Positions 13,983 to 52,921 of a stretch of 64,000 nt of DNA are shown piece by piece. Position 1 is the first letter of the stretch; each line of letters opens with the position of its first letter. The notes under the pieces were generated by a model, which was not told where the DNA came from, made no database searches, and saw nothing but the letters and a program-made list of their open reading frames with translations. A program made the translations under genes and the position numbers. Origin of the DNA: Klenkia soli (GTDB lineage Bacteria > Actinomycetota > Actinomycetes > Mycobacteriales > Geodermatophilaceae); contig NZ_FNIR01000001.1 of assembly GCF_900103975.1 (NCBI RefSeq), positions 1 to 64,000 of the forward strand. The letters are read 5' to 3'.

Positions 13983-15285
13983 CGGCACCCAGCACGCGGT
14001 CGAGGTAGGCGTTCGAGAGCACCCCGGTGGGGTCCAGCCGGTCGCGCACGGCGACGAACTCGGCGAACCGGGGGTACCGCTGCGCCAGGGCGCCGGCGTC
14101 CAGGTCGTGCTCCTTGCCCCAGTGCGGTCGGCCGCCGACCTCGCCGGCCAACGCCGCGAAGGTCGTGAAGTAGTCGGTGGGGTCGCTGCGGGCCGGCACG
14201 TGGACGGCGACGTAGGCGGTGTCCCGGCCCTCCGAGGTCGACAGCGGGACGTCGTCGGCCGCCGCGTAGCGGACCTCGGTGGGGATGGGCAGCCGCCACC
14301 CGCGCGCCTGGGTCAGCCGGGCCAGCTCGCGCAGCAGGTGCGGCACGGCCTCGCGGGGCACGGCCTGCTCCATCTCGCGGAACCGGAACCGGCGCGTGGA
14401 GACGAAGACGCGGTGCGAGAGGTCGGTCGCCGTCCGCGGGCTCAGCGCGGTCGAGGCGAACCGGGCCAGCGGGGGGACCAGTGCGGGGACGGCGCGGCCG
14501 GCGGCGATCAGCCCCGAGTAGGCGCCGTTGGCCAGCAGCTCGTCCTCCCACAGCGCCTGCCACCGGGGCAGCGGCGACAACCCCTCCGAGACCGGCACGC
14601 GGGTGTTGCGCTTGGTCAGGCACATCGCCGTGTGCGGGAACCAGTGGAACTCGACGTGGTCGGTGGAGGTCATGAAGCCGTCGAGGTCCTCGAGCACCTC
14701 GGCCAGCGGCATCGGCCGCTCCTCCATGTGCAGGGCGAACGCCGGCTCGGCCTGCAGGGTGACCGTGCTCAGGACGCCGAGCGCGCCCAGCCCGACCCGG
14801 GCGACGGCGAACACGTCGGCGTTGGCCGCGGCCGCGCAGTCGAGCACCGCGCCGTCGGCGGTGACCAGCTGGAGGGCGCGCACCTGGGTGGCCAGCCCGC
14901 CGAACCGGGCGCCGGTGCCGTGGGTTCCGGTGGACAGCGCGCCGGCGATCGTCTGCCGGTCGATGTCGCCCAGGTTCGTCAGCGCCCAGCCCTCGCGGGC
15001 CAGCACCGCGTTGAGCCGGTGCAGCGGCATGCCGGCCTGCGCGGTGACCAGGCCGTCGGCGGTGATGTCGACGAGGTCGGCGTGCCGGTCGAGCACCAGC
15101 TGCACCTGCTCGGGCCGGCCGATGCCGGAGAAGGAGTGCCCGCTGCCGATGGGGCGCACCTGGCGGCCGGCGACCGACGCCTCGTGCAGCACGGTGGCGA
15201 TCTCACCGGTCGTGCGCGGCCGGACCACCTCGACGCCGGCCGCCCGCTGGTTGCCCGCCCAGTTCCGCCACCGCACGGGCGTCAT
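13930..15285 (-). CDS. FAD-linked sugar-lactone/alditol oxidase (D-arabinono-1,4-lactone oxidase family)
   Basis: A 451-residue VAO-type flavoprotein. The PCMH FAD domain fills the first half: RPIGSGHSFSGIG near residue 48 contains the histidine expected to hold FAD covalently, followed by GALSTGTHGTG. The C-terminal ALO domain ends with RPHWGKEHDL, the conserved HWGK motif. Members oxidise aldonolactones or alditols with O2, releasing H2O2. The ATG at 15285 overlaps the ABC-F stop as ATGA, so the two are coupled. About 20 C-terminal residues extend past the usual end and account for the 53-base overlap with the convergent dehydratase gene. Confidence 0.86.
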   Translation of the reverse strand: MTPVRWRNWAGNQRAAGVEVVRPRTTGEIATVLHEASVAGRQVRPIGSGHSFSGIGRPEQVQLVLDRHADLVDITADGLVTAQAGMPLHRLNAVLAREGWALTNLGDIDRQTIAGALSTGTHGTGARFGGLATQVRALQLVTADGAVLDCAAAANADVFAVARVGLGALGVLSTVTLQAEPAFALHMEERPMPLAEVLEDLDGFMTSTDHVEFHWFPHTAMCLTKRNTRVPVSEGLSPLPRWQALWEDELLANGAYSGLIAAGRAVPALVPPLARFASTALSPRTATDLSHRVFVSTRRFRFREMEQAVPREAVPHLLRELARLTQARGWRLPIPTEVRYAAADDVPLSTSEGRDTAYVAVHVPARSDPTDYFTTFAALAGEVGGRPHWGKEHDLDAGALAQRYPRFAEFVAVRDRLDPTGVLSNAYLDRVLGAVSPERGPVGGRPSAPGC

Positions 15286-20664: not shown

Positions 20665-20768
20665 CCTGGCACCTGTTTCGTCCTGGCGGGCCCCGGGGCA
20701 GTCAGCAGCCGACTCGCGTCCAGACAACGGCGCCGGCCATCCCCCCGCACTCGTTCCCAGGGAGAGCC

Positions 20769-22868
<2,100 letters not shown>

Positions 22869-35947: not shown

Positions 35948-36775
35948 TCAGACGGTGAGCGCAGCCTCGTCGGCGGCCACGGCGGCGTTCCACTCGGGCT
36001 TCTCGGCCTGCCAGCGGTCCTCGGTGCGGCCGACCCGCCAGTAGCCCGAGACGCTGAGCAGCTCACGGGGCACCTCCCAGCGGGCGCGCACGAACCGGCG
36101 CAACTCGCGCACGAAGCCGGCCTCGCCGTGCACGAACACGTGCGGCACGCCCTCGGGCCAGTCGGCGGCCAGCACCGCGGCGGTCACCGCCGCCCCCACC
36201 GGACCCTCGCCCCGGTGCACCCAGGTCACCCCGGGCAGGTCCTGCTCGTCGGCCGGGCCCTCGACCTCGACGAACGCCCGCACCGGCGCGCCGGCCGGCA
36301 TGCGCGGGAGCGCCGCGGCCACCGCCGGCAGCGCCGAGTCGTCGGCCACCAGCAGGTGCCAGGCGGCGTCCGGGCTGGGCGCGTAGGCGCCCCCGGGGCC
36401 GGCGAACTGCAGCAGGTCCCCCGGCTGCGCGGCGGCCGCCCACGGTCCGGCGATCCCCTCGTCGCCGTGGGTGACGAAGTCGACGGCCAGCTCGCCGAGC
36501 TCGGCGTCCCACGAACGCACGGTGTAGGTGCGGCTGACCGGCCACAGCTCGCGCGGGTGCTCGGCCTGGACCGTCTCGGCGTCGAAGGGCGCGGCGTAGG
36601 GCGCCCCGGGCGGCGGCAGCTGGAGCTTCACGTAGTGGTCGGTGAACGCGCCCGCGCCGAAGCCGGCCAGCGCGTCACCGCCCAGCACGACCCGGACCAG
36701 GTGCGGGGTCACCCGCTCGGTGCGCACGACGGTGCCCACGCGGGTCACCCGTCGCTTCTTCGGTGGCTGCGTCAC
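35948..36775 (-). CDS. Siderophore-interacting protein (FAD-binding ferric-siderophore reductase, SIP family)
   Basis: A 275-residue flavin reductase that would release iron from ferric siderophores in the cytosol using NAD(P)H. The N-terminal FAD barrel contains RTYTVRSWD (the RxYT(V/I)R motif), HGDEGIAGPWA and PGDLLQFAGPGG. The C-terminal SIP half has LLVADDSALPAV, HVFVHGEAGFVRELR and the terminal SVSGYWRVGRTEDRW. The GTG at 36775 follows GGAGG at good spacing. An IdeR/DtxR-type box sits 13 bases upstream, so expression should be iron-repressed. No siderophore genes are in the window. Confidence 0.91.
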   Translation of the reverse strand: MTQPPKKRRVTRVGTVVRTERVTPHLVRVVLGGDALAGFGAGAFTDHYVKLQLPPPGAPYAAPFDAETVQAEHPRELWPVSRTYTVRSWDAELGELAVDFVTHGDEGIAGPWAAAAQPGDLLQFAGPGGAYAPSPDAAWHLLVADDSALPAVAAALPRMPAGAPVRAFVEVEGPADEQDLPGVTWVHRGEGPVGAAVTAAVLAADWPEGVPHVFVHGEAGFVRELRRFVRARWEVPRELLSVSGYWRVGRTEDRWQAEKPEWNAAVAADEAALTV

Positions 36776-36787
36776 GTCGTCCTCCAA

Positions 36788-36803
36788 GTTAGGTGTGCCT
36801 AAC
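36788..36803. promoter_or_regulatory. IdeR/DtxR-type iron box
   Basis: GTTAGG-TGTG-CCTAAC, a perfect 6-bp inverted repeat matching the TTAGG...CCTAA core of actinobacterial iron boxes. It lies just upstream of the siderophore-interacting protein gene; the divergent MFS gene starts 108 bases to the right and could share control. Confidence 0.78.
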
Positions 36804-36911
36804 GTACCTCGACCGGTTGGTTGGACGCCCCAACGTGCGGTACGGGCCCGGTGGCGTGACCATCTCGGTGCGGTCGACGGCGACCGCACCGAGACGAACC
36901 AGGGGCAGCAC

Positions 36912-38354
36912 ATGGCCACCGGCACCCACGACCTGGGCACCATCACCACCGACGTCCCGGCCCGGCTCGACCGGCTGCCGTTCTCCCGCTTCCACCGCAT
37001 GGTGATCGTCGGCCTGGGCACCGTGTGGGTGCTCGACGGGCTCGAGGTCACCATCGTCGGCAGCGTCGGCGCCCGGCTCACCGAGGCCGGCAGCGGCATC
37101 TCGATCACCGCGTCGCAGATCGGGCTGGCTGCCTCGATCTACATCGTCGGCTCGTGCCTGGGCGCGTTGTTCTTCGGCCAGCTCACCGACCGGTACGGCC
37201 GCAAGAAGCTGTTCATGCTCACCCTGGGCATCTACGTGGTGGCCACCGTGCTCACCGCGTTCGCCACCGCGCCCTGGTTCTTCTACCTGTGCCGGTTCTT
37301 CACCGGCGCCGGCATCGGCGGCGAGTACGCGGCGATCAACTCGGCCATCGACGAGCTGATCCCGGCGCGGCTGCGCGGCCGGGTCGACCTGCTGGTCAAC
37401 GGCTCGTACTGGCTGGGCTCGGCGGCCGGTTCCGGCGCCTCGTTGCTGCTGCTGGACGAGAACCTGCTGGGCGCGGGCATCGGCTGGCGGCTGGCCTTCG
37501 GCATCGGCGCGGTGCTCGGGCTGCTCATCCTCGTCGTGCGCCGGCACGTGCCCGAGAGCCCCCGGTGGATGTTCATCCACGGCCAGGCCGACGAGGCGAA
37601 CCGCACCGTCGGCGAGGTCGAGCAGGAGGTCGAGCGCGAGACCGGGCAGACCCTCGAGCCGGTCGACCAGCAGCTGCGCATCACGCAGCGGCACGTCGTC
37701 CCGTTCCGCGAGATCGCGAAGGTGGCGTTCACGAAGTACCCGAAGCGGGCCGTGCTCGGGCTGGCGCTGTTCGTCGGGCAGGCGTTCCTCTACAACGGGT
37801 TCACCTTCAACCTGGGCACGCTGATGACCACGTACTTCGGGGTCGCCACCTCGACCGCGCCGGTGTTCCTGGTCGTCTACGCCGCCGGCAACTTCCTCGG
37901 CCCGGTGCTGCTGGGCCCGCTGTTCGACACGGTCGGCCGCAAGCCGATGATCTCGATCAGCTACCTGGGCTCCGCGGCGATGGCGGTGGTCATCGCGCTG
38001 GTGTTCACCGGGCTGAACGCGTGGACGTTCATCGGCCTGCTCGGCATCACGTTCTTCCTGGCCTCGGCCGGGGCCAGCGCGGCCTACCTCACGGTGAGCG
38101 AGATCTTCCCGATGGAGACCCGGGCCCTGGCGATCGCGTTCTTCTACGCGATCGGCACCGGCCTGGGCGGCATAGTCGGCCCGGTGCTGTTCGGCTCGCT
38201 GGTCGAGTCCGGGGACAGCAGCCAGCTGATCACCGGCTTCTACATCGCGGCGGCCGTGATGGCGGTCGGCGGCCTCGCCGAGCTGGCCTTCGGGGTGAAG
38301 AGCGAGAACGCCTCGCTGGAGGACATCGCCGACCCCCTCAGCGCGGCGGACTGA
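36912..38354 (+). CDS. MFS transporter (sugar-porter/MHS-like)
   Basis: A 480-residue, 12-helix uptake-type MFS protein. It has GQLTDRYGRKKLF after helix 2, PESPRWMF at the end of helix 6 (a sugar-porter motif), GPLFDTVGRKP between helices 8 and 9, and a central soluble loop with QEVERETGQ. The ATG at 36912 follows AGGGG (36901-36905). It is divergent from the iron-regulated SIP gene and convergent with the DeoR gene (4 bases), so the substrate could relate to either: a sugar acid or, less likely, a siderophore. Confidence 0.82.
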   Translation: MATGTHDLGTITTDVPARLDRLPFSRFHRMVIVGLGTVWVLDGLEVTIVGSVGARLTEAGSGISITASQIGLAASIYIVGSCLGALFFGQLTDRYGRKKLFMLTLGIYVVATVLTAFATAPWFFYLCRFFTGAGIGGEYAAINSAIDELIPARLRGRVDLLVNGSYWLGSAAGSGASLLLLDENLLGAGIGWRLAFGIGAVLGLLILVVRRHVPESPRWMFIHGQADEANRTVGEVEQEVERETGQTLEPVDQQLRITQRHVVPFREIAKVAFTKYPKRAVLGLALFVGQAFLYNGFTFNLGTLMTTYFGVATSTAPVFLVVYAAGNFLGPVLLGPLFDTVGRKPMISISYLGSAAMAVVIALVFTGLNAWTFIGLLGITFFLASAGASAAYLTVSEIFPMETRALAIAFFYAIGTGLGGIVGPVLFGSLVESGDSSQLITGFYIAAAVMAVGGLAELAFGVKSENASLEDIADPLSAAD

Positions 38355-38358
38355 GGCC

Positions 38359-39177
38359 TCAGGGCTGCTCCGCCCGACCCTGCTGGTCCACCACGACGAC
38401 CGCCACCCCTGCGGCCAGGAACGGGGCCAGGGCGGCCGGCTCGGCGGCGTCGTCGGTGACCAGCGTCCACGGCTCGGGCAGCCGGGCCCACGCGTGGAAG
38501 GGGCGGCGGCCGAGCTTGGCGGCGTGGGCGAGCACGTAGACCTGCTGCGACCGCCGCGCCATCAGCTCCTTGAGCCGGGTCTGGTCCAGACCCGCCTCGC
38601 AGATGCCGCTGTCGGCGGTCACGCCGTCGGCGCCGAGGAAGACCCGGTCGAACGTCATGCGCTCGAGCGCGGCCTCGGTGAGCGGGCCGACGAACCCCTG
38701 GGAGAGGTGCCGCAGCGTGCCGCCCAGGCACTCGACGTGCACCTCGTCGACGTCGGCCAGCGCCTCGAGCACGGTCAGGCCGGTGGTGGCCACGGTCAGC
38801 GGCACCGTCGTCCGCAGCTCGTGGGCCACCGCCCCGACCGTCGAACCGGCGTCCAGCAGCACGGTCTCCCCCGGCTGCACCTGGGCGGCGGCCCACCGCG
38901 CGATGCCCCGCTTGGCCGCGTAGGCCTCGCCGGTGCGCTGCCGCAGCGACGTCTCGGGGTGGGCCACCAGCGCCATCGCCCCGCCGTAGGTGCGGGCCAG
39001 CCGACCGTCGCCGGTCAGCTGCGCCAGGTCGCGCCGGATGGTGGAGGCGGTCACCTCGAAGGTGGCGGCCAGCTCCTCGACCGAGGCCAGCCCGGTGGTG
39101 GTGGCCAGCCGCACGATCTCCTCGCGGCGGGCGCGGGACCCCAGCTGACGGGCCGTGCCGGCGTCGTCGATGTGCAC
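38359..39177 (-). CDS. DeoR/GlpR-family repressor of the acid-sugar locus
   Basis: A 272-residue DeoR-type regulator. The winged helix spans about residues 14-68 (SRARREEIVRLATTTG, then VTASTIRRDLAQL, the DeoR signature), and the sensor domain has LLDAGSTVGAVAHEL and FLGADGVTADSG, which bind a phosphorylated sugar in relatives. It directly follows the kinase-dehydrogenase gene on the minus strand (15-base gap), so it probably controls the divergent promoter region at 41458-41642. The inducer would be a phosphorylated acid sugar, which agrees with the linked kinase. Confidence 0.88.
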   Translation of the reverse strand: MHIDDAGTARQLGSRARREEIVRLATTTGLASVEELAATFEVTASTIRRDLAQLTGDGRLARTYGGAMALVAHPETSLRQRTGEAYAAKRGIARWAAAQVQPGETVLLDAGSTVGAVAHELRTTVPLTVATTGLTVLEALADVDEVHVECLGGTLRHLSQGFVGPLTEAALERMTFDRVFLGADGVTADSGICEAGLDQTRLKELMARRSQQVYVLAHAAKLGRRPFHAWARLPEPWTLVTDDAAEPAALAPFLAAGVAVVVVDQQGRAEQP

Positions 39178-39192
39178 GCGTGCCTCCGCGGG

Positions 39193-41457
39193 TCAGGCCG
39201 CCGGCGCCGGCGACGTCTGCGTCGCAGGACTGGGCGACATCTGTGCAGCCTGCCGCAGAGCCTCGACCATGCTGCGGACGTCGACCTTGCCGGTGCCCGC
39301 GATGTCGAAGGCCGTGCCGTGGTCGACCGACGTGCGGATGACCGGCAGGCCCACGGTGATGTTCACCCCGGCCTCGATGCCCAGGATCTTCACCGGGCCG
39401 TGGCCCTGGTCGTGGTACATGGCGACGATCAGGTCGTAGTCGCCCCGGCCGGCGACGAAGAAGGCGGTGTCGGCCGGCATCGGGCCGCGGGCGTCGATGC
39501 CGTCGGCCTGCAGCACCTCGATGGCGGGGACGATCTTCTCCTCCTCCTCGCCGTAGCCGAACAGGCCGTTCTCCCCGGCGTGCGGGTTGATGCCGCAGAC
39601 GCCGATGCGCGGGTTCTCGATGCCGGCGCGGACCAGCGCGTCGTGGCCGCGGCGGACGGTGCGCTCGACCAGACCGGGCTCGATCTTGGCGATCGCGTCG
39701 ATCAGCCCGATGTGGGTGGTCACGTGGATCACCCGGATCTTCGGCGAGCTGAGCATCATCGAGACCTCCTCGATGCCGCAGAAGTGCGCGAGCAGCTCGG
39801 TGTGCCCGGGGTAGACGTGCCCGGCCGAGTGCAGCGCCTCCTTGTTCAGCGGCGCGGTGCAGATGCCCTGCACCCGCCCGGCCATCGCCAGCTCGGCGGC
39901 GACCCGGATGTACTCGTAGGCGGCGTGCCCGGCGACCGGCGACAGCTGCCCGAACGGCAGGTCGGCCGGCAGCAGGCCCAGGTCGACGACGTTGATCCGG
40001 CCGGGCTCGAAGACCGCCTGCTCGGGGCCCTCGACCACGACGATCCGGGCGGCCAGGCCGAGCAGGTCGGCGGCCTGCTGCAGCCGGGCGGCGTCGCCGA
40101 CCACGACGGGCCGGCAGTCGGCGTAGGAGGCCTCGTCGACCAGGGCACCGACCACGACCTCGGGGCCGACCCCGGCACCGTCGCCCATGGTGACCGCGAT
40201 CCACGGCCGGGGATCGGTGCTCGTCCCCGGGGTCGTTGCGGGGGTGGTGAGGGTGCTCATCGGGAGGGTGCCTTCCGTCGGGGTGCGGGGGGTCAGGGCG
40301 GTGAGGATGGTCAGGAGGGAGTCGGCGTCGCCGAAGCTGCCGGGCCGGGTCACGACGGTGCGGCCGTCGTCGGCGGTCGAGAGGACAGCCCCGTGGTGCA
40401 CAGACCCGCGGGGGGTGAGCCGGACGACGTCGAGGGCGTCGAGCACCCGACGGGCGGTCTCACCCCCGGTCAGCACCAGGTCCACCACCGCGTCGGTCAG
40501 CTGCAGCGCGTCGGCGACCAGCCGGGACAGCCCGGCCGAGAGGGCGCGGGAGGACGCGGGGCGGACGGCGTCCGCGGGGTCGGGGCGCAGCACGAGGGGG
40601 CCGCGGGTCAGCCGGTCGGCGACCTCGGCGGCCCAGCGGGCCTCGGCAAGCGGCTCGACCAGCGCGGCCACCGGGACCACCAGCTCGTCGACCCCGGCAG
40701 CGACCAGCTGTGCCACCTGCACGGCGGCCACGGGCTCCGCCGTCCCGACCACGACCAGCGGCCCGGCGCCGACCCCGCGGACGCCGGGCGCGGCACCGAC
40801 GGCCGCGCCGAGGGTGCGGCCGAGGGCTGCAGCGAGGCCACCGGACCCGGCCAGGGCCACGCCGGGCAGCTGCGCCACGGCAGCGACGACCGCGTCCAGG
40901 TCGGCATCGGTCTCCCCGTCGCAGACGGGCACCGACCCGGCGCCGAGCAGGGCCTGCAGCTCGCTGCCCAGCCGGGGCGAGCGGACGACACCCAGCGGGA
41001 CGACGGCCACCGGCAGCGGGGCCAGCGCCTGGGCCACGGTCGCCGGGGCAGGGCGGCCCTCGGTGGCCCACGCGTCCAGGGCGGACAGCGGCCGACCGGC
41101 AGCGGAGGGCACGCCGTCGACCACCGTGCGGCCCAGCGCCGGCAGTGCCGGGGCGACGACGACCGCACCGGCGGCGCCCACCGCAGCGGCGAGCGGACCG
41201 CGCAGCAGCGAGTCAACCTTGATCAGCACCTGCGCGGACCGCGCAGCGGACAGGGCAGCCCCGACACGGTCGGCCACGACGTGGTCCGGGAGGTGCCGGG
41301 CGTCCAGGTCCACCACGCACACCCCGGCCGGCATGGTCGGCAGCACCTCGCCCGCGAGCAGCACGGAAACCTGGGATCCCAGCAGGGCGGCGGTCTCGGC
41401 CGCCCCGGAGAGGTCGTCGGCCAGGACCAGGACCGCGGGGGACGGTGGTCGGGTCAC
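39193..41457 (-). CDS. Fused four-carbon acid sugar kinase (DUF1537) and PdxA-type dehydrogenase
   Basis: One uninterrupted 754-residue frame. Residues 1 to about 375 are a DUF1537 acid-sugar kinase (LVLADDLSGAAETA at the start, LIKVDSLLRGPL, then LVLTGGETARRVLDAL and GSFGDADSL at the end). A Thr/Pro-rich linker spans about 376-418. Residues about 419-754 are a PdxA-type metal-dependent dehydrogenase (VTMGDGAGVGPE, GHTELLAHFCG, GINPHAGENG, MYHDQGHGPVK). In known pathways separate DtnK/DenK kinases phosphorylate D-threonate or D-erythronate at C4, and PdxA2 then oxidises and decarboxylates the product to dihydroxyacetone phosphate. Joining them would channel that intermediate. The GTG at 41457 follows GGGAGG. 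An internal ATG (40260, with GGAAGG upstream) could give an extra free dehydrogenase. Confidence 0.87.
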   Translation of the reverse strand: MTRPPSPAVLVLADDLSGAAETAALLGSQVSVLLAGEVLPTMPAGVCVVDLDARHLPDHVVADRVGAALSAARSAQVLIKVDSLLRGPLAAAVGAAGAVVVAPALPALGRTVVDGVPSAAGRPLSALDAWATEGRPAPATVAQALAPLPVAVVPLGVVRSPRLGSELQALLGAGSVPVCDGETDADLDAVVAAVAQLPGVALAGSGGLAAALGRTLGAAVGAAPGVRGVGAGPLVVVGTAEPVAAVQVAQLVAAGVDELVVPVAALVEPLAEARWAAEVADRLTRGPLVLRPDPADAVRPASSRALSAGLSRLVADALQLTDAVVDLVLTGGETARRVLDALDVVRLTPRGSVHHGAVLSTADDGRTVVTRPGSFGDADSLLTILTALTPRTPTEGTLPMSTLTTPATTPGTSTDPRPWIAVTMGDGAGVGPEVVVGALVDEASYADCRPVVVGDAARLQQAADLLGLAARIVVVEGPEQAVFEPGRINVVDLGLLPADLPFGQLSPVAGHAAYEYIRVAAELAMAGRVQGICTAPLNKEALHSAGHVYPGHTELLAHFCGIEEVSMMLSSPKIRVIHVTTHIGLIDAIAKIEPGLVERTVRRGHDALVRAGIENPRIGVCGINPHAGENGLFGYGEEEEKIVPAIEVLQADGIDARGPMPADTAFFVAGRGDYDLIVAMYHDQGHGPVKILGIEAGVNITVGLPVIRTSVDHGTAFDIAGTGKVDVRSMVEALRQAAQMSPSPATQTSPAPAA

Positions 41458-41642
41458 GCGGCACCTCCCAGCGGACGACGGGGTCGGGCCAGATGCCCGA
41501 CGACCTGTGCAGCGTGACACACAACGCGCACAACACGCCAGCGTCTTGCGCGAAACGCGCACGAGGTGGCACGGTGACCCAGGCAACACCGACCCGGCCG
41601 GCGACCGCCGGGCCCCGGTCCGGCACGAGCGAGAGGTCGACG
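41458..41642. promoter_or_regulatory. Divergent control region of the acid-sugar locus with DeoR-type operator repeats
   Basis: This region separates the kinase-dehydrogenase gene (minus) from the transporter operon (plus). AACGCGCAC occurs at 41523-41531 and again at 41554-41562, exactly 31 bases (three helical turns) apart. The second copy is part of the palindrome TGCGCG-AAA-CGCGCA (41547-41561). Position and repetition fit binding by the locus DeoR protein with looping or cooperative contacts. The ribosome site GAGAGG before 41643 is at the right edge. Confidence 0.55.
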
Positions 41643-43229
41643 ATGACCGCACCACGGACGAGCAGGGAGATCTCCCGCCGCTCCCTGTTCCGCCTGGGTG
41701 GCGTGGTGGGGGCCGGTCTGGCGTTCGGGCCGGCCCTGGCCGCCTGCGCCGGGCCCACCGGCACCCCCGGCCCGGGCACGCTGACCATGGCGCTCAACCG
41801 CTCCCTGGTCAGCCTGGACAACAAGCTCAACCAGTTCGACGCCGCGGTCACCGTGCAGCGCGCCGTGCGCCAGGGCCTGACCCGGATCGGCGCCGACCTC
41901 ACCCCCGAGCTGGTGCTCGCCGAGCGCTTCGAGCTCACCGGCGACACGCAGTGGACGGTGCAGCTGCGCGACGGGGTCGTCTACTCCGACGGCACCCCGG
42001 TCACCCCTCAGGACGTCGCCACCGCGCTGCAGATGTACCAGGACGTGAACGGCTCCTTCCTCGCCTCCTTCTTCCGCGAGTGGCCCACCGTCGAGGTGCT
42101 CGACGAGCGCACCTTCACGATGAACACGCAGCTGCCCGAGCCCAACCTCGACTACCTGATGGCCAACATCCTCATCACCCCGGCGGCGGCCAACGCCCCC
42201 GAGGAGCTGCAGTCCGGCGTCGGCTCCGGCCCCTACGTGGTCACCGCCAGCAACCGCGGTACCGGCGACTACACGCTGACCCGCAACGAGAACTACTGGG
42301 GCGAACCGGCCGCGGTCGAGACCGTGCGGGTGCGGTTCGTGCCCGAGGAGTCCAGCCGGGTCGTGTCGATGCGCTCGGGCGAGGTCGACGTCATCGACAC
42401 CATCTCCCCCGACTCCGCCGACCAGCTCGCCGGCGTCCGCGACGTCACGGTCGAGCGGGTCGACGGCCTGCGGATCAGCCAGCTGTTCTACAACTTCCGC
42501 AAGCCCGCCGACCACCCGCTGGCCAACGTGAAGGTGCGGCAGGCGCTGTCGCTGGGCATCGACGGGCGGGCCCTGGTCGACGACGTCCTCGTCGGCTCGG
42601 TCACCGCCGCGAAGGGCGTCGTCCCCGAGGGCCTGGCCGGCGGCACCGGGAACCACGAGTACACCTTCGACCCCCGCGCGGCCCGGCAGATGCTGGCCGC
42701 CGAGGGCATCCAGGACGGCGACCTCGAGCTCACCATGATCTGGGAGACCGGGGAGTTCGCCAACGACACCTCGGTGATGGAGGCCGTCGTGCAGATGATG
42801 GGCGACATCGGCGTCCGCAGTCGGCTGGTGCAGTTCCAGCCCGGCGGGGACATCTCGCTGTGGCGGCAGGGCCGGGCCGGCGACTGGGACGTGCTGGGCA
42901 ACGGGTTCGCCTCCCCCACGGGCCTGGCGCTCACCATGCTGCAGGGCATGTACGGCGGCACCGCCGAGCGCGAGGCCACCCGCGACACCTACCACGGGTA
43001 CGTCTTCCCGGAGATCCAGCAGGTCATCACCGCCGCCGGCACCGAGGTCGACCCCGCCCGCCGCGAGGCCCTGCTGGCCCAGGCGCAGGACGCGGTGTGG
43101 GAGACCTGGCCGTGCATGTGGGCCTTCGTCCCCGACGCCGTCCTCGCTCGGCGCAATCGGGTCGGTGACCTGGTGCTCAAGCCGTCCAACTCCTTCGAGC
43201 TCTCGACGACCACGCTGGGACGCAGCTGA
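41643..43229 (+). CDS. ABC transporter solute-binding lipoprotein (family 5, DppA/OppA type)
   Basis: A 528-residue extracellular binding protein. The N-terminus has a twin-arginine-like motif (ISRRSLFRLGG) and a lipobox (LAAC, lipidated near residue 34), so it is probably exported by Tat and lipid-anchored. The family 5 fold is shown by RAVRQGLTRIG, VQLRDGVVYSDGTPVTPQDV, GSGPYVV and VRQALSLGIDGRALVDDV. Family 5 proteins bind peptides but also oligosaccharides and sugar acids; the neighbouring catabolic genes favour a carbohydrate ligand. It is the first gene of a nine-gene operon. Confidence 0.88.
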   Translation: MTAPRTSREISRRSLFRLGGVVGAGLAFGPALAACAGPTGTPGPGTLTMALNRSLVSLDNKLNQFDAAVTVQRAVRQGLTRIGADLTPELVLAERFELTGDTQWTVQLRDGVVYSDGTPVTPQDVATALQMYQDVNGSFLASFFREWPTVEVLDERTFTMNTQLPEPNLDYLMANILITPAAANAPEELQSGVGSGPYVVTASNRGTGDYTLTRNENYWGEPAAVETVRVRFVPEESSRVVSMRSGEVDVIDTISPDSADQLAGVRDVTVERVDGLRISQLFYNFRKPADHPLANVKVRQALSLGIDGRALVDDVLVGSVTAAKGVVPEGLAGGTGNHEYTFDPRAARQMLAAEGIQDGDLELTMIWETGEFANDTSVMEAVVQMMGDIGVRSRLVQFQPGGDISLWRQGRAGDWDVLGNGFASPTGLALTMLQGMYGGTAEREATRDTYHGYVFPEIQQVITAAGTEVDPARREALLAQAQDAVWETWPCMWAFVPDAVLARRNRVGDLVLKPSNSFELSTTTLGRS

Positions 43230-43230
43230 C

Positions 43231-44204
43231 ATGGCCACCTACATCGCCAAGCGCGTCGGGCAGAGCGTGCTGACGCTCTTCCTGACCATCACCACGGTCT
43301 TCGTGCTGCTCCGGCTCGCGCCGGGTGACCCGGCCGCCGCCTACGCCGGGCCGAACCCGACGACCGAGGACCTGGAGCGGATCCGGGCCCAGTTCGGCCT
43401 GGACGACTCGATCCTGGTGCAGTACGGCACCTTCCTGAAGGGCCTGGTCACCGGCGACCTCGGGACGTCGTTCTCCTTCCAGGCACCGGCGCTGGACGTC
43501 GTCCTGGAGCGGTTGCCCTACACGATCACCCTCGCCGTCTCGGCGATCGTGGTGACCGCGCTGGTCGCGATCCCGCTGGGCGTGTGGATGGCCCGCCGGG
43601 CCGACACCGCCAAGGAGTTCGGCGCCAACCTGCTGACCATCACCGGCCAGTCGATGCCCGACTTCTGGAGCGGCATCATGCTGCTCACCGTCTTCGCCGT
43701 GGTCGTCCCGGTGTTCCCGGCCTCGGGCTTCACCAGCTGGGGCGGCCTGGTGCTGCCCACGCTGACCATCGCGATCCTGCAGATCGCGCTGATCAGCCGC
43801 ATGGTGCGCCGCGAGATGAGCACGAACATGGCCGCGCCCTACCTGACCGTCGCCCGCTCCCGCGGGGTCGGCGAGCGGGCGCTGACCTGGCGCTACGCGA
43901 TGACCAACTCCGCGATCCCGGTGCTCACCGCCCTGGGCACCCGGTTCGCCGCGATGCTCAACGGCGTCGTGGTGGTCGAGGTGGTGTTCGCCTGGCCCGG
44001 CGTCGGCTCGCTCGTCGTCCGGGCGCTGGAGACCCGGGACTACCCGCTGATCCAGGCCACCGTGCTGGTCACCGCCGCGCTGACCGTGCTGGTGCAGCTG
44101 CTCATCGACCTGGCCTACCCGCTGCTCGATCCCCGGGTGCGGCTGGCGAAGACCGCGAAGCAGAAGACGGCGCCCGCCGTCGCCGCCCCCGAAGGAGCCC
44201 TCGC

Positions 44205-44208
<4 letters not shown>
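43231..44208 (+). CDS. ABC transporter permease (DppB type)
   Basis: A 325-residue inner-membrane permease. The N-terminal helix plus LLRLAPGDPAAAYAG (the DppB LxPGDP motif) is followed by the MetI-like core. The EAA-loop region is YLTVARSRGVGERALTWRYAM, and FAWPGVGSLVVRALETRDYPLIQ is the characteristic C-terminal block. It starts one base after the binding-protein stop and overlaps dppC-like by 4 bases (GTGA). Confidence 0.91.
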
Positions 44209-45157
<949 letters not shown>

Positions 45158-45161
<4 letters not shown>

Positions 45162-46009
45162 GCACCGTGGTCTTCCCGATCCCGCACGACAGCACCCCGA
45201 TCCTCGAGGTCACCGACCTGCAGGTCGAGCTGGTCACGGCCGACCGCGTCGTCCGCGCGGTGGACGGCGTCAGCTTCCGCATCTCCCGCGGCGAGACCGT
45301 GACGATCATCGGCGAGTCCGGCTCGGGCAAGTCGACGACGGCCATGGGCGTGCTCCAGCTGCTGCCGCACGACCTGGCCGTGCTGTCGGGCTCGGTCAAG
45401 GTCGGCGGCGTCGACCTGCTGGTGGACACCGACGCCGCCCGCCGCATCCGCGGCCGGATGGTCTCGCTCATCCCGCAGGACCCGATGACCGCGCTGTCGC
45501 CGGTGCACTCGGTGGGCAAGCAGCTCACCGGCGCCGTCCGCCTCGCCGGGCACCCCCGGGGGAAGGCCCGGGCCCGCGCGGTCGAGCTGCTGGAGGCGGT
45601 GCGCATCCCGCGGCCCGAGGAGCAGCTGGACAAGTACCCGCACCAGCTCTCGGGCGGCATGCTGCAGCGCGTCCTCATCGCGATCGCGCTGGCCGGGCAC
45701 CCGGTGCTGCTGGTCGCCGACGAGCCCACCTCGGCCCTCGACGTCACCGTGCAGGCCGGCATCCTGGACCTGCTGCTGGAGCTGCAGGAGCGCACCGGCA
45801 TCGGGATCCTGATGATCACCCACGACCTGGGTGTCGCCCGGCTGGTGAGCGACCGGATCCACGTGATGAAGGACGGCCGGTTCGTCGAGTCCGGCGACGC
45901 CGAGCAGGTCGTGGAGCACCCGCGCGAGGAGTACACCCAGCGGCTGCTGGCCGCCGTCCCCCAGCTGGGGACGTTCGACGAGGACACCCCCGTGGAGGTG
46001 CCGGCATGA
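45158..46009 (+). CDS. ABC transporter ATPase (DppD type)
   Basis: A 283-residue nucleotide-binding subunit. Walker A GESGSGKST, Q-loop LIPQDPMTALSPV, signature HQLSGGMLQRV, Walker B LLVADEPTSALDV and switch His in MITHDLGV are all present. The C-terminal part after the H-loop is short (about 50 residues) compared with DppD proteins that carry a full oligopeptide C-terminal extension with an iron-sulfur cluster. GTG start overlapping the previous stop (GTGA). Confidence 0.92.
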
Positions 46010-46812
46010 CCGAGCCGTTCCTGTCCGTGCGCGACCTGGTCGTCAGCTACGGCGACTTCCGGGCCGTGGACGGCGTCAGCTTCGACATCGACAAGGGCCA
46101 GACCCTGGCCGTGGTCGGGGAGTCGGGCTGCGGCAAGTCGACGATCGCCCGCGCGCTGGTCCGGCTGGTCACCCCGACCTCCGGCCAGATCGTGCTGGAC
46201 GGCACCGACATCGCCCAGCTCGGCGAGAAGCAGCTGCGCCCGCTGCGGCACCGCGTGCAGATGGTCTTCCAGGACCCCTACGGGTCGCTGGACCCGCACC
46301 TGACCGCGGAGAAGATCGTGGCCGAGCCGATGCGGGACCGCTCCCGGGCCGACCGGCACGCCGAGGCCGCCCGGCTGCTGGACCTGGTCGGGCTGCCCAC
46401 CAGCGCCCTGGACCGCCGGCCCGCCGAGTTCTCCGGCGGACAGCGGCAACGGATCGGCATCGCCCGCGCGCTGGCCACCAGCCCCGACCTGCTGGTGCTC
46501 GACGAGGCCACCAGCGCCCTGGACGTCAGCGTGCAGGCCCAGGTGCTGGCCCTGCTGGCCGACCTGCAGCGCGAACGCGGCCTGACCTACCTGTTCATCA
46601 GCCACAACCTCGGGGTGGTCAAGCAGATCAGCGACCGGATCGTGGTCATGCGGGCCGGTCGGCTCGTGGAGACCGGGTCCACCGCCGACGTGCTGCACGC
46701 CCCCACCGAGGGCTACACCCGGGCGCTGCGCAAGGCCGCGCTCGACCCCACCACGATGCGCGGCCGCAAGCCCCGCGACGTCGTCCGGCAGCTGCAGGGA
46801 GCCCCCGCATGA
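46006..46812 (+). CDS. ABC transporter ATPase (DppF type)
   Basis: A 268-residue second nucleotide-binding subunit. It has Walker A GESGCGKST, Q-loop VFQDPYGSLDPH, signature EFSGGQRQRIG, Walker B LLVLDEATSALDV and switch His in ISHNLGV. It pairs with the DppD-type ATPase to energise uptake. ATG overlaps the previous stop (ATGA), and its own stop overlaps the reductase ATG, so all five transporter genes are translationally linked to the first catabolic enzyme. Confidence 0.92.
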   Translation: MTEPFLSVRDLVVSYGDFRAVDGVSFDIDKGQTLAVVGESGCGKSTIARALVRLVTPTSGQIVLDGTDIAQLGEKQLRPLRHRVQMVFQDPYGSLDPHLTAEKIVAEPMRDRSRADRHAEAARLLDLVGLPTSALDRRPAEFSGGQRQRIGIARALATSPDLLVLDEATSALDVSVQAQVLALLADLQRERGLTYLFISHNLGVVKQISDRIVVMRAGRLVETGSTADVLHAPTEGYTRALRKAALDPTTMRGRKPRDVVRQLQGAPA

Positions 46813-47783
46813 CCCTCCAGATCCCCGGGGCACCCGTCCCCATGAGCCGGTTGGTGCTGGGCACCATGACCTTCGGCGACACGGTCGACGCCGCCGGCTC
46901 CGCCGCGATGCTCGACGCCGCGCTGGAGGCCGGGATCACCGGCCTGGACACCGCCAACGGCTACGCCGGCGGGGCCACCGAGACCATCCTCGGCCCGCTG
47001 CTGGCCACCCGGCGGGACCAGGTGGTGCTGGCCACCAAGGCCGGCATCCCGCACCCCGACGCCGGCGACCACGCCCCGCTGTCGAGGGCCGGGCTCGAGG
47101 CCTCGTTGGCCGGGTCGCTGGCCCGGCTGCAGGTCGACCGGGTGGACCTGTTCTACCTGCACCAGCCCGACCGGGCCACGCCGATCCGCGAGACGCTGAC
47201 GACGATCGCGGACTTCGTCGCCGACGGCCGGGTCGGCGCGCTGGGTGTCTCGAACATGGCCGCTTGGCAGATCGCCGAGCTCGACGCCGCCGCCGACGAC
47301 GTGGGTTGCCCCCGCCCGGTCGTCGCGCAGCAGCTGTACAACCTGCTGGCCCGCCGGGTCGAGGAGGAGTACCTGGAGTTCGCCCGGGTCAACGGCCTGG
47401 CCACCATGGTCTACAACCCGCTCGGCGGCGGGCTCCTCACCGGCAAGCACTCCTTCGACGAGGCGGCCACCAGCGGCCGGTTCGGCGACTCGAAGCTCGC
47501 CGCCATGTACAAGCAGCGGTACTGGACCCCCGAGCTGTTCGACGCCGTCGGCCGGCTGTCCGCGATCGCCGACGGCGCGGGGATCCCGCTGGCCGAGCTC
47601 TCCCTGCGCTGGCTGCTGGGCTCCTCCGACGTCGGCGCGCTGCTGCTCGGCGGGTCGAAGGTCGCCCAGCTGCAGCAGAACGTCGCCGCCGCAGCGGCCG
47701 GTCCGCTGCCCGCCGACGTGGTCGCCGCCTGCGACGAGGTCGGCGCCGCGCTGCGCGGCCCCATGCCCGCCTACAACCGCTGA
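46809..47783 (+). CDS. Aldo/keto reductase
   Basis: A 324-residue NADPH-dependent AKR barrel enzyme of the actinobacterial AKR11/MocA-like type. Catalytic tetrad candidates are D and Y in GLDTANGYAGG, K in VVLATKAG and H in LFYLHQPDR. SNMAAWQIAEL and QQLYNLLARRVEEE are the nucleotide/substrate loops. In this operon it probably oxidises or reduces a sugar hydroxyl, in the manner of inositol or L-rhamnose/glucose dehydrogenating AKRs. ATG at 46809 overlaps the ATPase stop. Confidence 0.89.
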   Translation: MTLQIPGAPVPMSRLVLGTMTFGDTVDAAGSAAMLDAALEAGITGLDTANGYAGGATETILGPLLATRRDQVVLATKAGIPHPDAGDHAPLSRAGLEASLAGSLARLQVDRVDLFYLHQPDRATPIRETLTTIADFVADGRVGALGVSNMAAWQIAELDAAADDVGCPRPVVAQQLYNLLARRVEEEYLEFARVNGLATMVYNPLGGGLLTGKHSFDEAATSGRFGDSKLAAMYKQRYWTPELFDAVGRLSAIADGAGIPLAELSLRWLLGSSDVGALLLGGSKVAQLQQNVAAAAAGPLPADVVAACDEVGAALRGPMPAYNR

Positions 47784-47799
47784 CCCCCTGGAGCTCGCG

Positions 47800-48594
47800 T
47801 TGACCCGCCACACCGACCTGACCGCCCGGATCCGCGCCCGCGAGCGCGTGCTCGGCTACTGGATCACCCTGGACTCCCCCGTCTCCACCGAGCGGATCGC
47901 CCGCACCGGCTACGACTACGTGGCCCTCGACGCCCAGCACGGGCTGTTCTCCTACGAGGGCATGCTGCGCGGGATCACCGCGGTCGACGCCGTCGGCGGC
48001 GTGGCGTGGGTGCGGGTGGAGGCCAACGACCCCACCTACATCGGCAAGGCGCTGGACGCCGGCGCGGGCGGGGTGATCGTGCCGCTGGTGGACGACGCCG
48101 CGCAGGCCGCGGCCGCCGTCGCCGCCGCCAAGTACCCGCCGGTCGGCCGGCGCAGCTACGGCCCGATGCGCTCGGCGCTGCGGGTCGGGCCGAAGCCGGC
48201 CGACAGCAACGACACCACGCTGGTGTTCGCGATGATCGAGACGCCGGAGGGCCTGGCGAACGTCCCCGAGATCTGCGCGACCCCCGGCCTGGACGGCGTC
48301 TACGTCGGACCGTCGGACCTGTGCATCGCCGTCGGCGGGGCCTTCCCCAACGACCCAGCGGTGGCCGAGGTGTTCGAGGCCGCGCTGGTCACCGTGCGCG
48401 AGGCCGCGGCGTCCGCCGGGGTGGCCGCCGGCATCCACACCGCCGCCGGCGCGCAGGCGGCGCAGCGGCTGGCCGAGGGCTACACCTTCGCCACCGTCTC
48501 CTCCGACCTCACCCACCTGGAGCAGGCCGCCGCCGACCACCTCGCGGCTGCCCGGGGCGGCCGGGGTACCGCCGACGACGGGACGGGCTACTGA
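47800..48594 (+). CDS. HpcH/HpaI-family class II aldolase
   Basis: A 264-residue metal-dependent pyruvate aldolase of the HpcH/HpaI family, which splits 2-keto-3-deoxy sugar acids into pyruvate and an aldehyde. Metal ligands are in MIETPEGLANV (E) and YVGPSDLCIAVGG (D), with the catalytic base region LDAQHGLFSYE (H) and GGVIVPLVDDA. The best start is TTG at 47800 after GGAG (47790-47793); no ATG or GTG fits. The stop shares one base with the next ATG (TGATG). The presence of this aldolase argues for a 2-keto-3-deoxy intermediate in the pathway. Confidence 0.88.
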   Translation: MTRHTDLTARIRARERVLGYWITLDSPVSTERIARTGYDYVALDAQHGLFSYEGMLRGITAVDAVGGVAWVRVEANDPTYIGKALDAGAGGVIVPLVDDAAQAAAAVAAAKYPPVGRRSYGPMRSALRVGPKPADSNDTTLVFAMIETPEGLANVPEICATPGLDGVYVGPSDLCIAVGGAFPNDPAVAEVFEAALVTVREAAASAGVAAGIHTAAGAQAAQRLAEGYTFATVSSDLTHLEQAAADHLAAARGGRGTADDGTGY

Positions 48595-49772
48595 TGACCA
48601 CCACCGAGCTGGTCCGCGACGGCGTGCTGCGGGACGCCGGCCCCGGCCGCCGCGACGCGTTCCTGCCGACGACGACCGTGCAGGTGCACGCCGCCAACCT
48701 GATGACGCTCCCCGACGGCACGCTGGGCTGCGTGTGGTTCGGCGGCACGCAGGAGGGCGTCCCGGACATCTCGATCTGGTTCTCCCGGCTGGTCGGCGAC
48801 ACCTGGAGCCCCGCCGCCCAGCTCTCGGACGACGGCGCCCGCTCCGAGCAGAACCCGGTGCTCTTCCCCGCCCCGGACGGCACGCTCTGGCTGCTCTGGA
48901 CCGCGCAGCACGCCGGCGACCAGGACTCCGCCGAGGTGCGCTGCCGGGTGTCCCCCGACTCCGGGGCGACCTGGGGCGAGGCCCGCACGCTGTTCCCGGC
49001 CACCGAGGCGGGCGGGGTGTTCGTCCGCCAGCCGGTGGTCGTGCTGCCCTCGGGCCGCTGGCTGCTGCCGGTGTTCTCCTGCGTCACCGTGCCCGGGCAG
49101 AAGTGGGTCGGCGACGTCGACACCAGCTCGGTGATGGTCTCCGACGACGCCGGGGCCACCTGGCGCGAGGTCGTCGTCCCGGGGTCCACCGGGTGCGTGC
49201 ACATGGACGTCGTCCCGGTCGAGGGCGGGCTGGCCGCGTTCTACCGCAGCCGCTGGGCCGACTGGGTGCACCGCTCGACGTCGTCCGACGACGGCGAGAC
49301 CTGGACCGCCCCGGTGCCCACCGAGCTGCCGAACAACAACAGCTCGATCCAGGTGACCACGCTCGACGACGGCCGGCTGGCCATGGTGCTCAACCCGACG
49401 CAGGCCGGCCCGGACACCCCGCGGCGGCTGTCGCTGTACGACGAGATCGACGACTCCGGGCTCGCCGCCGAGCAGGGCGTCGCCGAGCCCACGGTGGACG
49501 ACGGCGCGCGGCACGCGTTCTGGGGCACCCCCCGCGCGCCGATGACGCTGGCCCTGTCCGCCGACGGCGGGGTGACCTGGCCCGCACGGCGGGACGTCGA
49601 GACCGGCGACGGCTACTGCCTGTCCAACAACAGCCGGGACGGCGTCAACCGGGAGCTGTCCTACCCCTCGGTGCACCAGACCCCCGACGGTCTGCTGCAC
49701 CTGGCCTTCACCTACCACCGCACGGCGATCGAGCACGTCGTGGTCGACCCGTCGTGGGTGGACGCCCGCTGA
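48594..49772 (+). CDS. Cytosolic BNR/sialidase-fold enzyme (sialidase family protein)
   Basis: A 392-residue beta-propeller protein with four Asp-box repeats: SPDSGATW, SDDAGATW, SSDDGETW and SADGGVTW. There is no signal peptide or membrane segment, so it acts inside the cell on an imported substrate. It lacks an obvious sialidase FRIP motif. BNR_2-fold proteins include not only sialidases but also L-rhamnose-alpha-1,4-D-glucuronate lyases, which would fit an acid-sugar pathway better; HAANLMTLPDGTL and LSYPSVHQTPDGLLHLAFTY are typical BNR_2 stretches. Its exact reaction is unknown. It shares single bases with both neighbours (TGATG at each end). Confidence 0.82.
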   Translation: MTTTELVRDGVLRDAGPGRRDAFLPTTTVQVHAANLMTLPDGTLGCVWFGGTQEGVPDISIWFSRLVGDTWSPAAQLSDDGARSEQNPVLFPAPDGTLWLLWTAQHAGDQDSAEVRCRVSPDSGATWGEARTLFPATEAGGVFVRQPVVVLPSGRWLLPVFSCVTVPGQKWVGDVDTSSVMVSDDAGATWREVVVPGSTGCVHMDVVPVEGGLAAFYRSRWADWVHRSTSSDDGETWTAPVPTELPNNNSSIQVTTLDDGRLAMVLNPTQAGPDTPRRLSLYDEIDDSGLAAEQGVAEPTVDDGARHAFWGTPRAPMTLALSADGGVTWPARRDVETGDGYCLSNNSRDGVNRELSYPSVHQTPDGLLHLAFTYHRTAIEHVVVDPSWVDAR

Positions 49773-50440
49773 TGCACGCCCTCGTCACCGGGGCCAGCTC
49801 GGGCATCGGCGCGGCCGTCGTGGACCGGCTGCTGGCCGACGGCTGGTCGGTCACCGGGGTCAGCCGGACCGCGCCGGCCGATCAGCCCGGGCTGACCTGG
49901 CTGCCCGCCGACTTGGCCGACGTCGAGGCCGTGCGCGACCTGCTCGCCCCGATCGGACCGCTGGACGCCGTGGTGCACTCCGCCGGCGTCCAGCGGTCCG
50001 CACCACTGGGCCGGCTGTCGCCGGCCGACGGGGCGCTGATGTGGCGGCTGCACGTGGACGCCGCGACCGCCGTCGTCGACGCCGTGGTGGACCGGGTCGT
50101 CGACGGCGGCCGGGTGGTGCTGATGGGCAGCCGGACGGCGGTCGGGGTGGCCGGCAAGAGCCAGTACGCCGCGACCAAGGCAGCGGTGGTCGGCCTGGCC
50201 CGGTCGTGGGCGATCGAGCTCGCGCCGCGGCGGATCACGGTGAACGTGGTGGCCCCGGGCCCGACGGAGACCCCGATGCTGCTCGACCCCGGCCGGGCGG
50301 CGACGCCTCCGCAGGCGCCGCCGCTGGGCCGGTTCGTACGCCCGGCCGAGGTGGCCGGGCTGACCGCGTTCCTGCTCGGTCCCGAGGGCGGGATGGTCAC
50401 CGGCCAGCAGCTGGTGGTCTGCGGCGGCGCGAGCCTGTAG
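49772..50440 (+). CDS. Short-chain dehydrogenase/reductase
   Basis: A 222-residue classical SDR: VTGASSGIG at the N-terminus, HSAG in place of NNAG, MGSRTA (catalytic Ser) and QYAATKAAV (YxxxK), then VVAPGPTETPM. It would oxidise or reduce a hydroxyl of the acid sugar. It is the last gene of the transporter operon (TGATG junction with the BNR gene) and lies one base from the convergent acyl-CoA dehydrogenase gene. Confidence 0.88.
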   Translation: MHALVTGASSGIGAAVVDRLLADGWSVTGVSRTAPADQPGLTWLPADLADVEAVRDLLAPIGPLDAVVHSAGVQRSAPLGRLSPADGALMWRLHVDAATAVVDAVVDRVVDGGRVVLMGSRTAVGVAGKSQYAATKAAVVGLARSWAIELAPRRITVNVVAPGPTETPMLLDPGRAATPPQAPPLGRFVRPAEVAGLTAFLLGPEGGMVTGQQLVVCGGASL

Positions 50441-51620: not shown

Positions 51621-51730
51621 GGGTGGGTCTCCTTCGTCGACAACGGCGTCTTCCTCGATCGTCCGCCAGCTACCCGCCGGTAGCCACTCCACGCACGGTG
51701 CCGACCATCACCCTCACTAGCCTGCTGCGC

Positions 51731-52921
51731 ATGGTCTCCCTGGGCACGCCCCTGTCCCCCTCGGCCACCCGCGTGATGCTGCTGGGCAGCGGCGAGCTGG
51801 CCAAGGAGGTGCTGATCGCGCTGCAGCGGCTCGGCGTCGAGACCATCGCGGTCGACCGGTACGCGGACGCCCCCGGGCACCAGGTCGCGCACCACGCCCG
51901 CACCATCACGATGAGCGACCCCGACCAGTTGCGCGCGCTGGTCGAGGCGGAGCGGCCCGACGTCGTCGTCCCGGAGATCGAGGCCATCGCCACCCCGACC
52001 CTGGTCGAGCTGGAGGCCGAGGGCGTACGGGTGGTGCCCACCGCCCGTGCCGCTCGGCTGACCATGGACCGCGAGGGCATCCGCCGGCTCGCCGCCGAGA
52101 CCCTCGGGCTGCCCACCAGCCCCTACCGGTTCTGCGACTCGCTCGAGGAGCTGCAGGCCGGCGCCGCGGCGGTCGGGTTCCCGTGCGTGGTGAAGCCGGT
52201 GATGAGCTCGTCGGGCAAGGGCCAGAGCACCGTGCGCACCGCCGAGGACGTCGAAGGGGCCTGGGCGTACGCGATGGCCGGCAGCCGGGTGGCCGGCACC
52301 CGGGTGATCGTCGAGGGCTTCGTCGACTTCGACTACGAGATCACCCTGCTGACCGTGCGCTCCCTGCGCGACGGGCAGATCGTGACCGGGTTCTGCGCGC
52401 CCATCGGCCACCGGCAGGAGTCCGGCGACTACGTGGAGAGCTGGCAGCCGCAGCCGATGAGCGCGGTGGCGCTGGAGCGGGCGCAGGCGATCGCCGCAGC
52501 GGTCACCGGCGACCTGGGTGGCCTGGGCCTGTTCGGCGTCGAGCTGTTCGTGCGCGGGGACGACGTGTGGTTCTCCGAGGTCAGCCCCCGCCCGCACGAC
52601 ACCGGCATGGTCACCATGACCACCCAGTGGCAGGACGAGTTCGAGCTGCACGCCCGCGCCCTGCTCGGCCTGCCGGTGGACACCTCGCTGCGCAACACCG
52701 GCGCCTCCGCCGTGGTCTACGGCGGTGTCGAGGCCACCGGGATCGTGTTCGACGGCGTCGACGAGGCCCTGGCGCTGCCCGGGGTGCAGCTGCGGCTGTT
52801 CGGCAAGCCCGAGAGCTTCACCCGCCGGCGGATGGGCGTGGCGCTGGCTCGTGCCGAGGACGTCGACACCGCCCGGGCCACCGCCCGGGAGGCGGCCGGC
52901 CGGGTGCGGCCCCGCGCCTGA
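51731..52921 (+). CDS. purT: Formate-dependent phosphoribosylglycinamide formyltransferase
   Basis: A 396-residue ATP-grasp enzyme that makes formyl-GAR from GAR, formate and ATP in purine synthesis, an alternative to folate-dependent PurN. It has [13 protein letters not shown] at the N-terminus, [11 protein letters not shown], the ATP-grasp [30 protein letters not shown] and the metal site [19 protein letters not shown] at 51731. It ends exactly where the convergent glycosylase-like gene ends (adjacent stop codons). Confidence 0.93.

Follow-up and report, generated by a model that had tools for sequence, protein, structure and literature searches.

We analyzed the first 64,000 nucleotides of contig NZ_FNIR01000001.1 of Klenkia soli (assembly GCF_900103975.1), referred to below as the window, for a gene cassette between positions 38359 and 50440. 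It consists of eleven genes in two divergent arms (Table 1). The minus arm begins with a DUF1537-PdxA fusion and continues with a DeoR gene, while the plus arm carries, in this order, the genes for an SBP5 binding protein, two permeases, two ATPases, an aldo/keto reductase (AKR), an HpcH aldolase, a BNR_2 protein and an SDR. Read from the sequence, six of the eight plus-arm junctions overlap by 1-4 bases (GTGA, ATGA or TGATG), and gaps of 1 bp and 16 bp precede the first permease and the HpcH gene, respectively. A preliminary description of this DNA had named the DeoR regulator, the fusion, the importer, AKR, HpcH, BNR and SDR as well as nine coupled plus-strand genes; Pfam, NCBIfam and the sequence confirmed each at its place.

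Table 1. Features of the cassette in the Klenkia soli window.
Feature	Position	Strand	Basis and remarks
DeoR-family repressor (HTH_DeoR + DeoRC)	38359-39177	-	Pfam; adjoins cassette, before or after, in most genome loci
DUF1537-PdxA fusion	39193-41457	-	Pfam, NCBIfam, PDB; kinase ~40261-41457, PdxA-family dehydrogenase 39193-40260
Probable DeoR operator TTGCGC-N5-GCGCAA	41546-41562	.	Pattern count in divergent promoter regions
SBP_bac_5 solute-binding protein, Tat/lipoprotein-like start	41643-43229	+	Pfam, translation
ABC permease, DppB/NikB type	43231-44208	+	Pfam, NCBIfam
ABC permease, DppC type	44205-45161	+	Pfam; start read from sequence
ABC ATPase, DppD/NikD type	45158-46009	+	Pfam, NCBIfam
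ABC ATPase, DppF type	46006-46812	+	Pfam, NCBIfam
AKR, proposed C4 semialdehyde reductase	46809-47783	+	Pfam, PDB
HpcH/HpaI class II pyruvate aldolase	47800-48594	+	Pfam, NCBIfam, PDB; TTG start assumed
Cytosolic BNR_2 protein, GH33-sialidase fold, proposed ulosonic/ulosaric-acid glycosidase	48594-49772	+	Pfam, fold searches
SDR oxidoreductase, optional member	49772-50440	+	NCBIfam

A scan of the genome collection with the BNR protein returned 128 pattern matches including 83 relatives, the best 80 of which were used as genome loci and compared, together with 15 plasmid loci that we picked from 308 plasmid records, by applying identity and coverage cut-offs chosen by us for each family. In this set of 95 loci, plasmid loci L092, L093, L099, L100 and L102 and genome loci L080 and L048 are sources of the reference sequences and match themselves, while L012 and L014 come from genomes G003 and G044. 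PdxA, SBP5, AKR and HpcH were found together in 57 of the 80 genome loci fetched via BNR, with SBP5 accompanying the catabolic genes in most of them. PdxA was present with BNR in 66 genome and 13 plasmid loci (79/95), and an SDR was detected in 69 and eight, respectively. Among the best 80 matches, the nearest named BNR relatives belong to Klenkia marina (94% identity) and Modestobacter (90-91%), and the cassette is common in the Arthrobacter/Pseudarthrobacter matches. The same set recurs in other genera, more than chance would produce, and the condition named in the preliminary description as a refutation, a gene set not kept together in relatives, did not apply. Two mycobacterial loci (L050 and L053, Mycolicibacterium/Mycobacterium) have the permease-ATPase-AKR-HpcH block inverted relative to BNR, rearranged but complete as judged from our matches.

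BNR was present in six of 146 related genomes, the own genome included, and the five other carriers, one of them from another family, exhibited the cassette in the same order with about 40-99% identity per protein. The outlier L011 had no DeoR match in its stretch and an extra membrane transport gene (PF03547, Mem_trans, 15031-15975) between BNR and SDR. Seven of 394 genomes drawn from the class carried BNR, again including the own genome, a count that may be low as few candidates were scored per genome. Since BNR is found in so few genomes and its carriers keep the gene order, the cassette is patchy and accessory as well as coherent. On plasmids, BNR matches were obtained in 308 of 72,556 records, mostly from Rhizobium (128), Sinorhizobium (78), Pantoea (27) and Agrobacterium (17), with a few distant ones, and the gene set is common to many soil and plant-associated bacteria. 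None of the eight pattern matches from a scan of viral contigs was a relative.

Closer examination of the 95 loci revealed a strict pairing of aldolase and reductase types. HpcH was accompanied by AKR in 66 of 66 cases and never by DHDPS or Fe-ADH, while Fe-ADH occurred with DHDPS in 21 of 21. Methylobacterium nodulans, for example, exhibits the order kinase, PdxA, Fe-ADH, DHDPS aldolase, SSS symporter, BNR and SDR, and clusters of this kind were also found in Azospirillum and Caballeronia, the latter with a 768-residue PdxA-annotated gene that is long enough for a fusion and in which the kinase part was not detected. Rhizobium, Agrobacterium, Ensifer and Roseicitreum have a similar cluster with an SBP5-type importer and no detected SDR. 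One Azospirillum locus (L096, 9224-9988) additionally contains a gene of the fumarylacetoacetate-hydrolase family whose similarity to 2-keto-4-pentenoate hydratases stays below cut-off. Because two unrelated aldolases and two likewise unrelated reductases are exchanged as a pair beside the same BNR, with PdxA retained in most loci, aldolase and reductase point to consecutive reactions, i.e. aldol cleavage followed by aldehyde reduction. Since the DUF1537 kinase family and PdxA2 act on C4 aldonates, we would expect the aldehyde to be a C4 acid semialdehyde, derived from a C7 3-deoxy-2-ulosarate as substrate.

A shared regulatory pattern was observed between the two arms. In 55 of the 83 stretches a divergent gap of less than 500 bp separates DUF1537 and SBP5, and in this set, which includes close relatives, the 17-bp palindrome was present with at most two mismatches in all 55 gaps compared with 2/55 mononucleotide-shuffled ones. 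A second-best copy lay 22-23 bp away in 50 of the 55, while shuffles had one at 23 bp either way in 36 of 2750. The operator in the window has one mismatch and its second copy (41524-41540) is weak with four. A 16-mer of the former occurs a single time in the own genome at up to one mismatch, and the six further operator-like sites with two mismatches in the window look like chance. The simplest reading is that the neighboring DeoR protein binds the palindrome and would thereby control both arms.

The two domains of the DUF1537 part (SBD_N, 80.5 bits, cut-off 25; NBD_C, 65.3 bits, cut-off 28.3) share one open frame with PdxA, which encodes 754 amino acids if GTG at 41457 is the start; PdxA alone could also start at an in-frame ATG at 40260 that follows a GGAAGG-like sequence. 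Excluding 16 of the 83 stretches in which no DUF1537/PdxA pair was detected, both parts formed one stop-to-stop frame in 52 of 67 and were separate in the other 15, which makes the fusion a widespread yet dispensable arrangement. Within the cassette, sequence divergence is greatest in DUF1537 (29-50% identity outside the family), which had no matches in a PDB search. The PdxA part is closer to the D-threonate-4-phosphate dehydrogenase 6e85 (296 bits) than to the PdxA 1ps7 (201 bits). A role in vitamin B6 synthesis was considered and rejected as unlikely, since the own genome has PdxS and only this one PdxA, and PdxJ was looked for there and not found. Genes for four-carbon acid sugar kinases on pSymB of S. 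meliloti are named in a genome-wide association study (PMC12904279) and could not be tied to the locus.

The aldolase matched the HpcH family domain PF03328 with 116.6 bits and HpcH/HpaI aldolase structures with 159 bits, while the solved structures nearest to the AKR are aflatoxin aldehyde reductases 2 and 3. For the BNR protein, fold searches returned the sialidase propeller fold of GH33, and the 50 matches listed in each search were sialidases or sialidase-fold entries. Tyr357 is invariant in 43 of 43 sequences, as are Arg218, Arg314 and His203, the last of which, judged by sequence alignment only, adjoins the position of the sialidase Glu that partners the Tyr. The first Arg of the sialidase triad that binds the carboxylate corresponds to His32 in a hand alignment or to Leu24 in a local hhalign run. 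The protein differs from GH33 exo-sialidases in its identity of only ~20%, in having no signal peptide visible by eye and in two canonical residues, discussed below, that were not found. An analogy to rhamnosyl-glucuronate lyases, drawn in the preliminary description, was dropped because the matches listed are sialidases and PL27 was not among them, which is not decisive. Two loci (L089 and L091) have a seemingly interrupted BNR frame with two separate matches at about 10001-11200 in each, and a YhcH-family gene adjoins BNR in Pantoea and in a Klebsiella stretch.

The binding protein of the importer opens, by eye, with a twin-arginine motif and a lipobox, while the Pfam TAT_signal score stayed below the cut-off (16.6 vs 22.7). 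The NCBIfam transporter models nearest to the importer are those for nickel, glutathione and dipeptides, all below cut-off. Relatives of the cassette use SSS, TctC-type or MFS transporters, and an MFS gene replaces the ABC importer in seven loci (L048, at 4269-5621, L039, L045, L047, L049, L054 and L089). The import of a glycoside, as proposed in the preliminary description, is possible, though made less likely by these transporters, which suggest a small acid. Between 97 and 130 kb of pRL9, the sole annotated peptide-type importer is that of the Rhizobium BNR cluster, which may correspond to the tag given in PMC3333776.

Taken together, these findings make it probable that the operon, under DeoR control, serves the catabolism of a sialic-acid-like 3-deoxy-2-ulosonic or 2-ulosaric acid, perhaps one from plant pectin. 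Gene content, conservation, fold, the paired replacement of two steps and the shared operator pattern were observed, while we infer each reaction, the order of the reactions and the substrate. The SBP5 ABC importer would bring in this acid, either free or as a small glycoside, and the cytosolic sialidase-fold BNR protein, most likely a Tyr-dependent glycosidase, would free or open the ulosonic unit. HpcH, as a class II pyruvate aldolase, would then release pyruvate from the ulosonic acid and leave a four-carbon aldehyde acid, which the AKR would turn into a C4 aldonate. This would be phosphorylated at O4 by DUF1537 and finally oxidized and decarboxylated by the PdxA part to dihydroxyacetone phosphate (DHAP), an intermediate of glycolysis. 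Acid-sugar catabolism with a C4 acid-sugar kinase family, a PdxA-family dehydrogenase and an HpcH aldolase had already been recognized in the preliminary description, while the two degradation branches it envisaged fit less well than one linear route, given the strict pairing and the frequent presence of PdxA.

The leading candidate for the substrate, proposed tentatively, is 3-deoxy-D-lyxo-2-heptulosarate (Dha) of plant rhamnogalacturonan II (RG-II), a C7 analogue of sialic acid. By carbon bookkeeping, Dha has the D-lyxo configuration at C4-C6, and cleavage between C3 and C4 with reduction of the aldehyde leads to D-threonate. Dha is favored because this product is a known substrate of the DtnK/PdxA2 pair. 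Dha is described in RG-II (PMC12168206) and in the scales of a green alga (PMC1413533), and a title cited in PMC5713287 places it in the lipopolysaccharide cores of Rhizobiaceae. Kdo was rejected as a substrate, since its retro-aldol cleavage gives D-arabinose and not a C4 acid.

Several observations weigh against this pathway and substrate. Neither GH28 nor Pectate_lyase_4 was found in any of the six carrier genomes, and carriers would therefore have to scavenge Dha rather than release it from pectin with these enzymes. In sequence alignments, no Arg or Glu of BNR corresponds to the Arg of the sialidase FRIP motif or to the Glu that partners the Tyr, so that a glycosidase mechanism of BNR is not assured, and the alternative transporters of the relatives point to a monosaccharide, for which a glycosidase would not be required. 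On the kinase side, the D-threonate kinase model was matched weakly (90.2 bits, cut-off 450), and as this equivalog cut-off was not reached the kinase part is not classed as a DtnK orthologue; the 3-oxo-tetronate kinase model scored 26 bits, far under its cut-off. The PdxA part passes the general PdxA model (357.8, cut-off 290), scores higher with the PdxA model PRK03743 (346 bits) than with the D-threonate model PRK03371 (328.8, cut-off 583) and has its best PDB match in 4jqp (501 bits), labeled as 4-hydroxythreonine-4-phosphate dehydrogenase. It appears ambiguous between PdxA and PdxA2 and is placed only in the PdxA family, since the PRK03371 cut-off was not reached. The closest models of AKR and Fe-ADH are generic, and the SDR has no explanation in the proposed pathway. 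Exceptions also exist among the loci: at the thresholds used, only BNR was found in L091 and in L086, although L086 carries TctC genes and a further member of the HpcH/HpaI family; AKR and HpcH are missing from L076; neither an aldolase nor PdxA or a kinase lies near BNR in the two Pantoea loci; and PdxA is absent from the fetched flanks in ten of the 11 genome loci from Acetobacteraceae.

The apparent residue replacements and the transporters also speak for an alternative in which the linear route is the same, the free acid is imported, and BNR acts as an anomerase/mutarotase or lactonase on the free monosaccharide feeding the aldolase. Propeller mutarotases such as NanM exist, and the YhcH-family gene beside BNR in Pantoea and Klebsiella is in line with this idea, while the same gene would be redundant were BNR an anomerase, and the GH33 glycosidase fold with its invariant Tyr357 argues for a glycosidase; we regard this version as rather unlikely. 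A different ulosonic acid, either a C7 3-deoxy-heptulosonate whose C4 aldose is oxidized to the aldonate or a heptulosarate stereoisomer giving D-erythronate, is unlikely to a greater degree. It draws on the fact that the gene set fixes only the C4 acid as end product. Clusters containing DUF1537 have been described for several C4 acids (PMC10580937), which also speaks for such a substrate. Against it, aldehyde reduction is the activity for which the reductase families are better known, and of the two C4-kinase models matched the one for D-threonate scored higher (90 vs 26 bits). This alternative lies within the pathway logic set out above, and the likelihoods given to the two overlap.

We consider it improbable that two branches coexist, with separately imported D-threonate or erythronate serving DUF1537-PdxA and HpcH, AKR, BNR and SDR degrading another sugar acid or glycoside. 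The divergent transcription of the kinase-PdxA arm and the loci noted above in which BNR has no PdxA nearby (L086, L091, both from Pantoea and those from Acetobacteraceae) would agree with such a division, whereas PdxA accompanies BNR in the large majority of genome and plasmid loci, with both aldolase/reductase types, and a single operator pattern lies between the arms. That a peptide or nickel importer stands by chance beside unrelated sugar-acid genes, as its nearest transporter models might suggest, is very hard to credit, given that SBP5 is found with the catabolic genes in most genome loci and that SBP5-type importers accompany BNR in the rhizobial clusters as well.

The proposed operon resembles D-threonate catabolism by DtnK and PdxA2 in its kinase family, its PdxA-family dehydrogenase, here mostly fused, and its end product DHAP. 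In contrast to that system, the kinase and dehydrogenase stay below the equivalog cut-offs and are joined by a pyruvate aldolase, an aldehyde reductase and the sialidase-like protein, and the C4 acid would thus be an intermediate and not the food. With sialic acid catabolism (sialidase, transporter, N-acetylneuraminate lyase and YhcH) it would share a propeller glycosidase followed by retro-aldol release of pyruvate, and some relatives of the cassette also have SSS transporters, a DHDPS-superfamily aldolase and YhcH; in contrast, no amino-sugar kinase, epimerase or deaminase is among the Pfam matches of the cassette, and the second half would proceed via a C4 aldonate. According to PMC6811678, the GH143 Dha hydrolase of Bacteroides thetaiotaomicron is likewise a sialidase-like propeller and acts on Dha, the substrate proposed for BNR; it is five-bladed and joined to an arabinofuranosidase, and was set beside BNR by description only. 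The aldolase-DUF1537 pathway for L-threonate and D-erythronate of Ralstonia and Brucella also combines a DeoR regulator with a DUF1537 kinase, and its cluster, as given in PMC10580937, comprises ltnD, otnK, otnI, denD, otnC and an MFS gene, while the Pfam matches of the cassette name none of the other enzymes. The composition of the locus had been called unfamiliar; this holds insofar as no described pathway was found in the partial open-access literature, and does not hold for the gene set itself, which is common in the Arthrobacter/Pseudarthrobacter matches and has relatives on rhizobial plasmids.

The cassette is flanked by a plus-strand MFS transporter gene on one side and a minus-strand acyl-CoA dehydrogenase gene on the other. 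The former (Sugar_tr/MFS, 36762-38354) ends 4 bases from the DeoR gene and among five relatives is present only in L007, while a plus-strand PurT-like ATP-grasp gene past the acyl-CoA dehydrogenase (51713-52921) stays beside the cassette in L007 and L008. A promoter consensus scan gave 0 promoters and one terminator-like site. Elsewhere in the window ARAGORN placed a tmRNA on the minus strand (20438-20805), the tag frame of which may be misread; its tag peptide seems unusual, presumably, compared with known tags.

The proposed pathway is coherent, widespread and built from known kinds of enzymes, and is undescribed in the open-access literature searched, which was covered in part and in which no catabolic route for Dha turned up. 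It is possible, though again only tentatively proposed, that it represents the first Dha catabolic pathway, with sialidase-like release, retro-aldol cleavage to pyruvate and tartrate semialdehyde, and conversion via D-threonate to DHAP, existing in two convergent versions (HpcH with AKR, DHDPS with Fe-ADH) in soil and plant-associated bacteria. If true, a coherent job would be found for the genes that carry the names 'exo-alpha-sialidase' and 'PdxA' in many Arthrobacter-type genomes and some 300 plasmid records, and these two misleading names would be corrected. Aldolase and reductase, exchanged as a pair, would then clearly exemplify two-step convergent replacement in one pathway, and a rare plant sugar acid would have a testable microbial fate.

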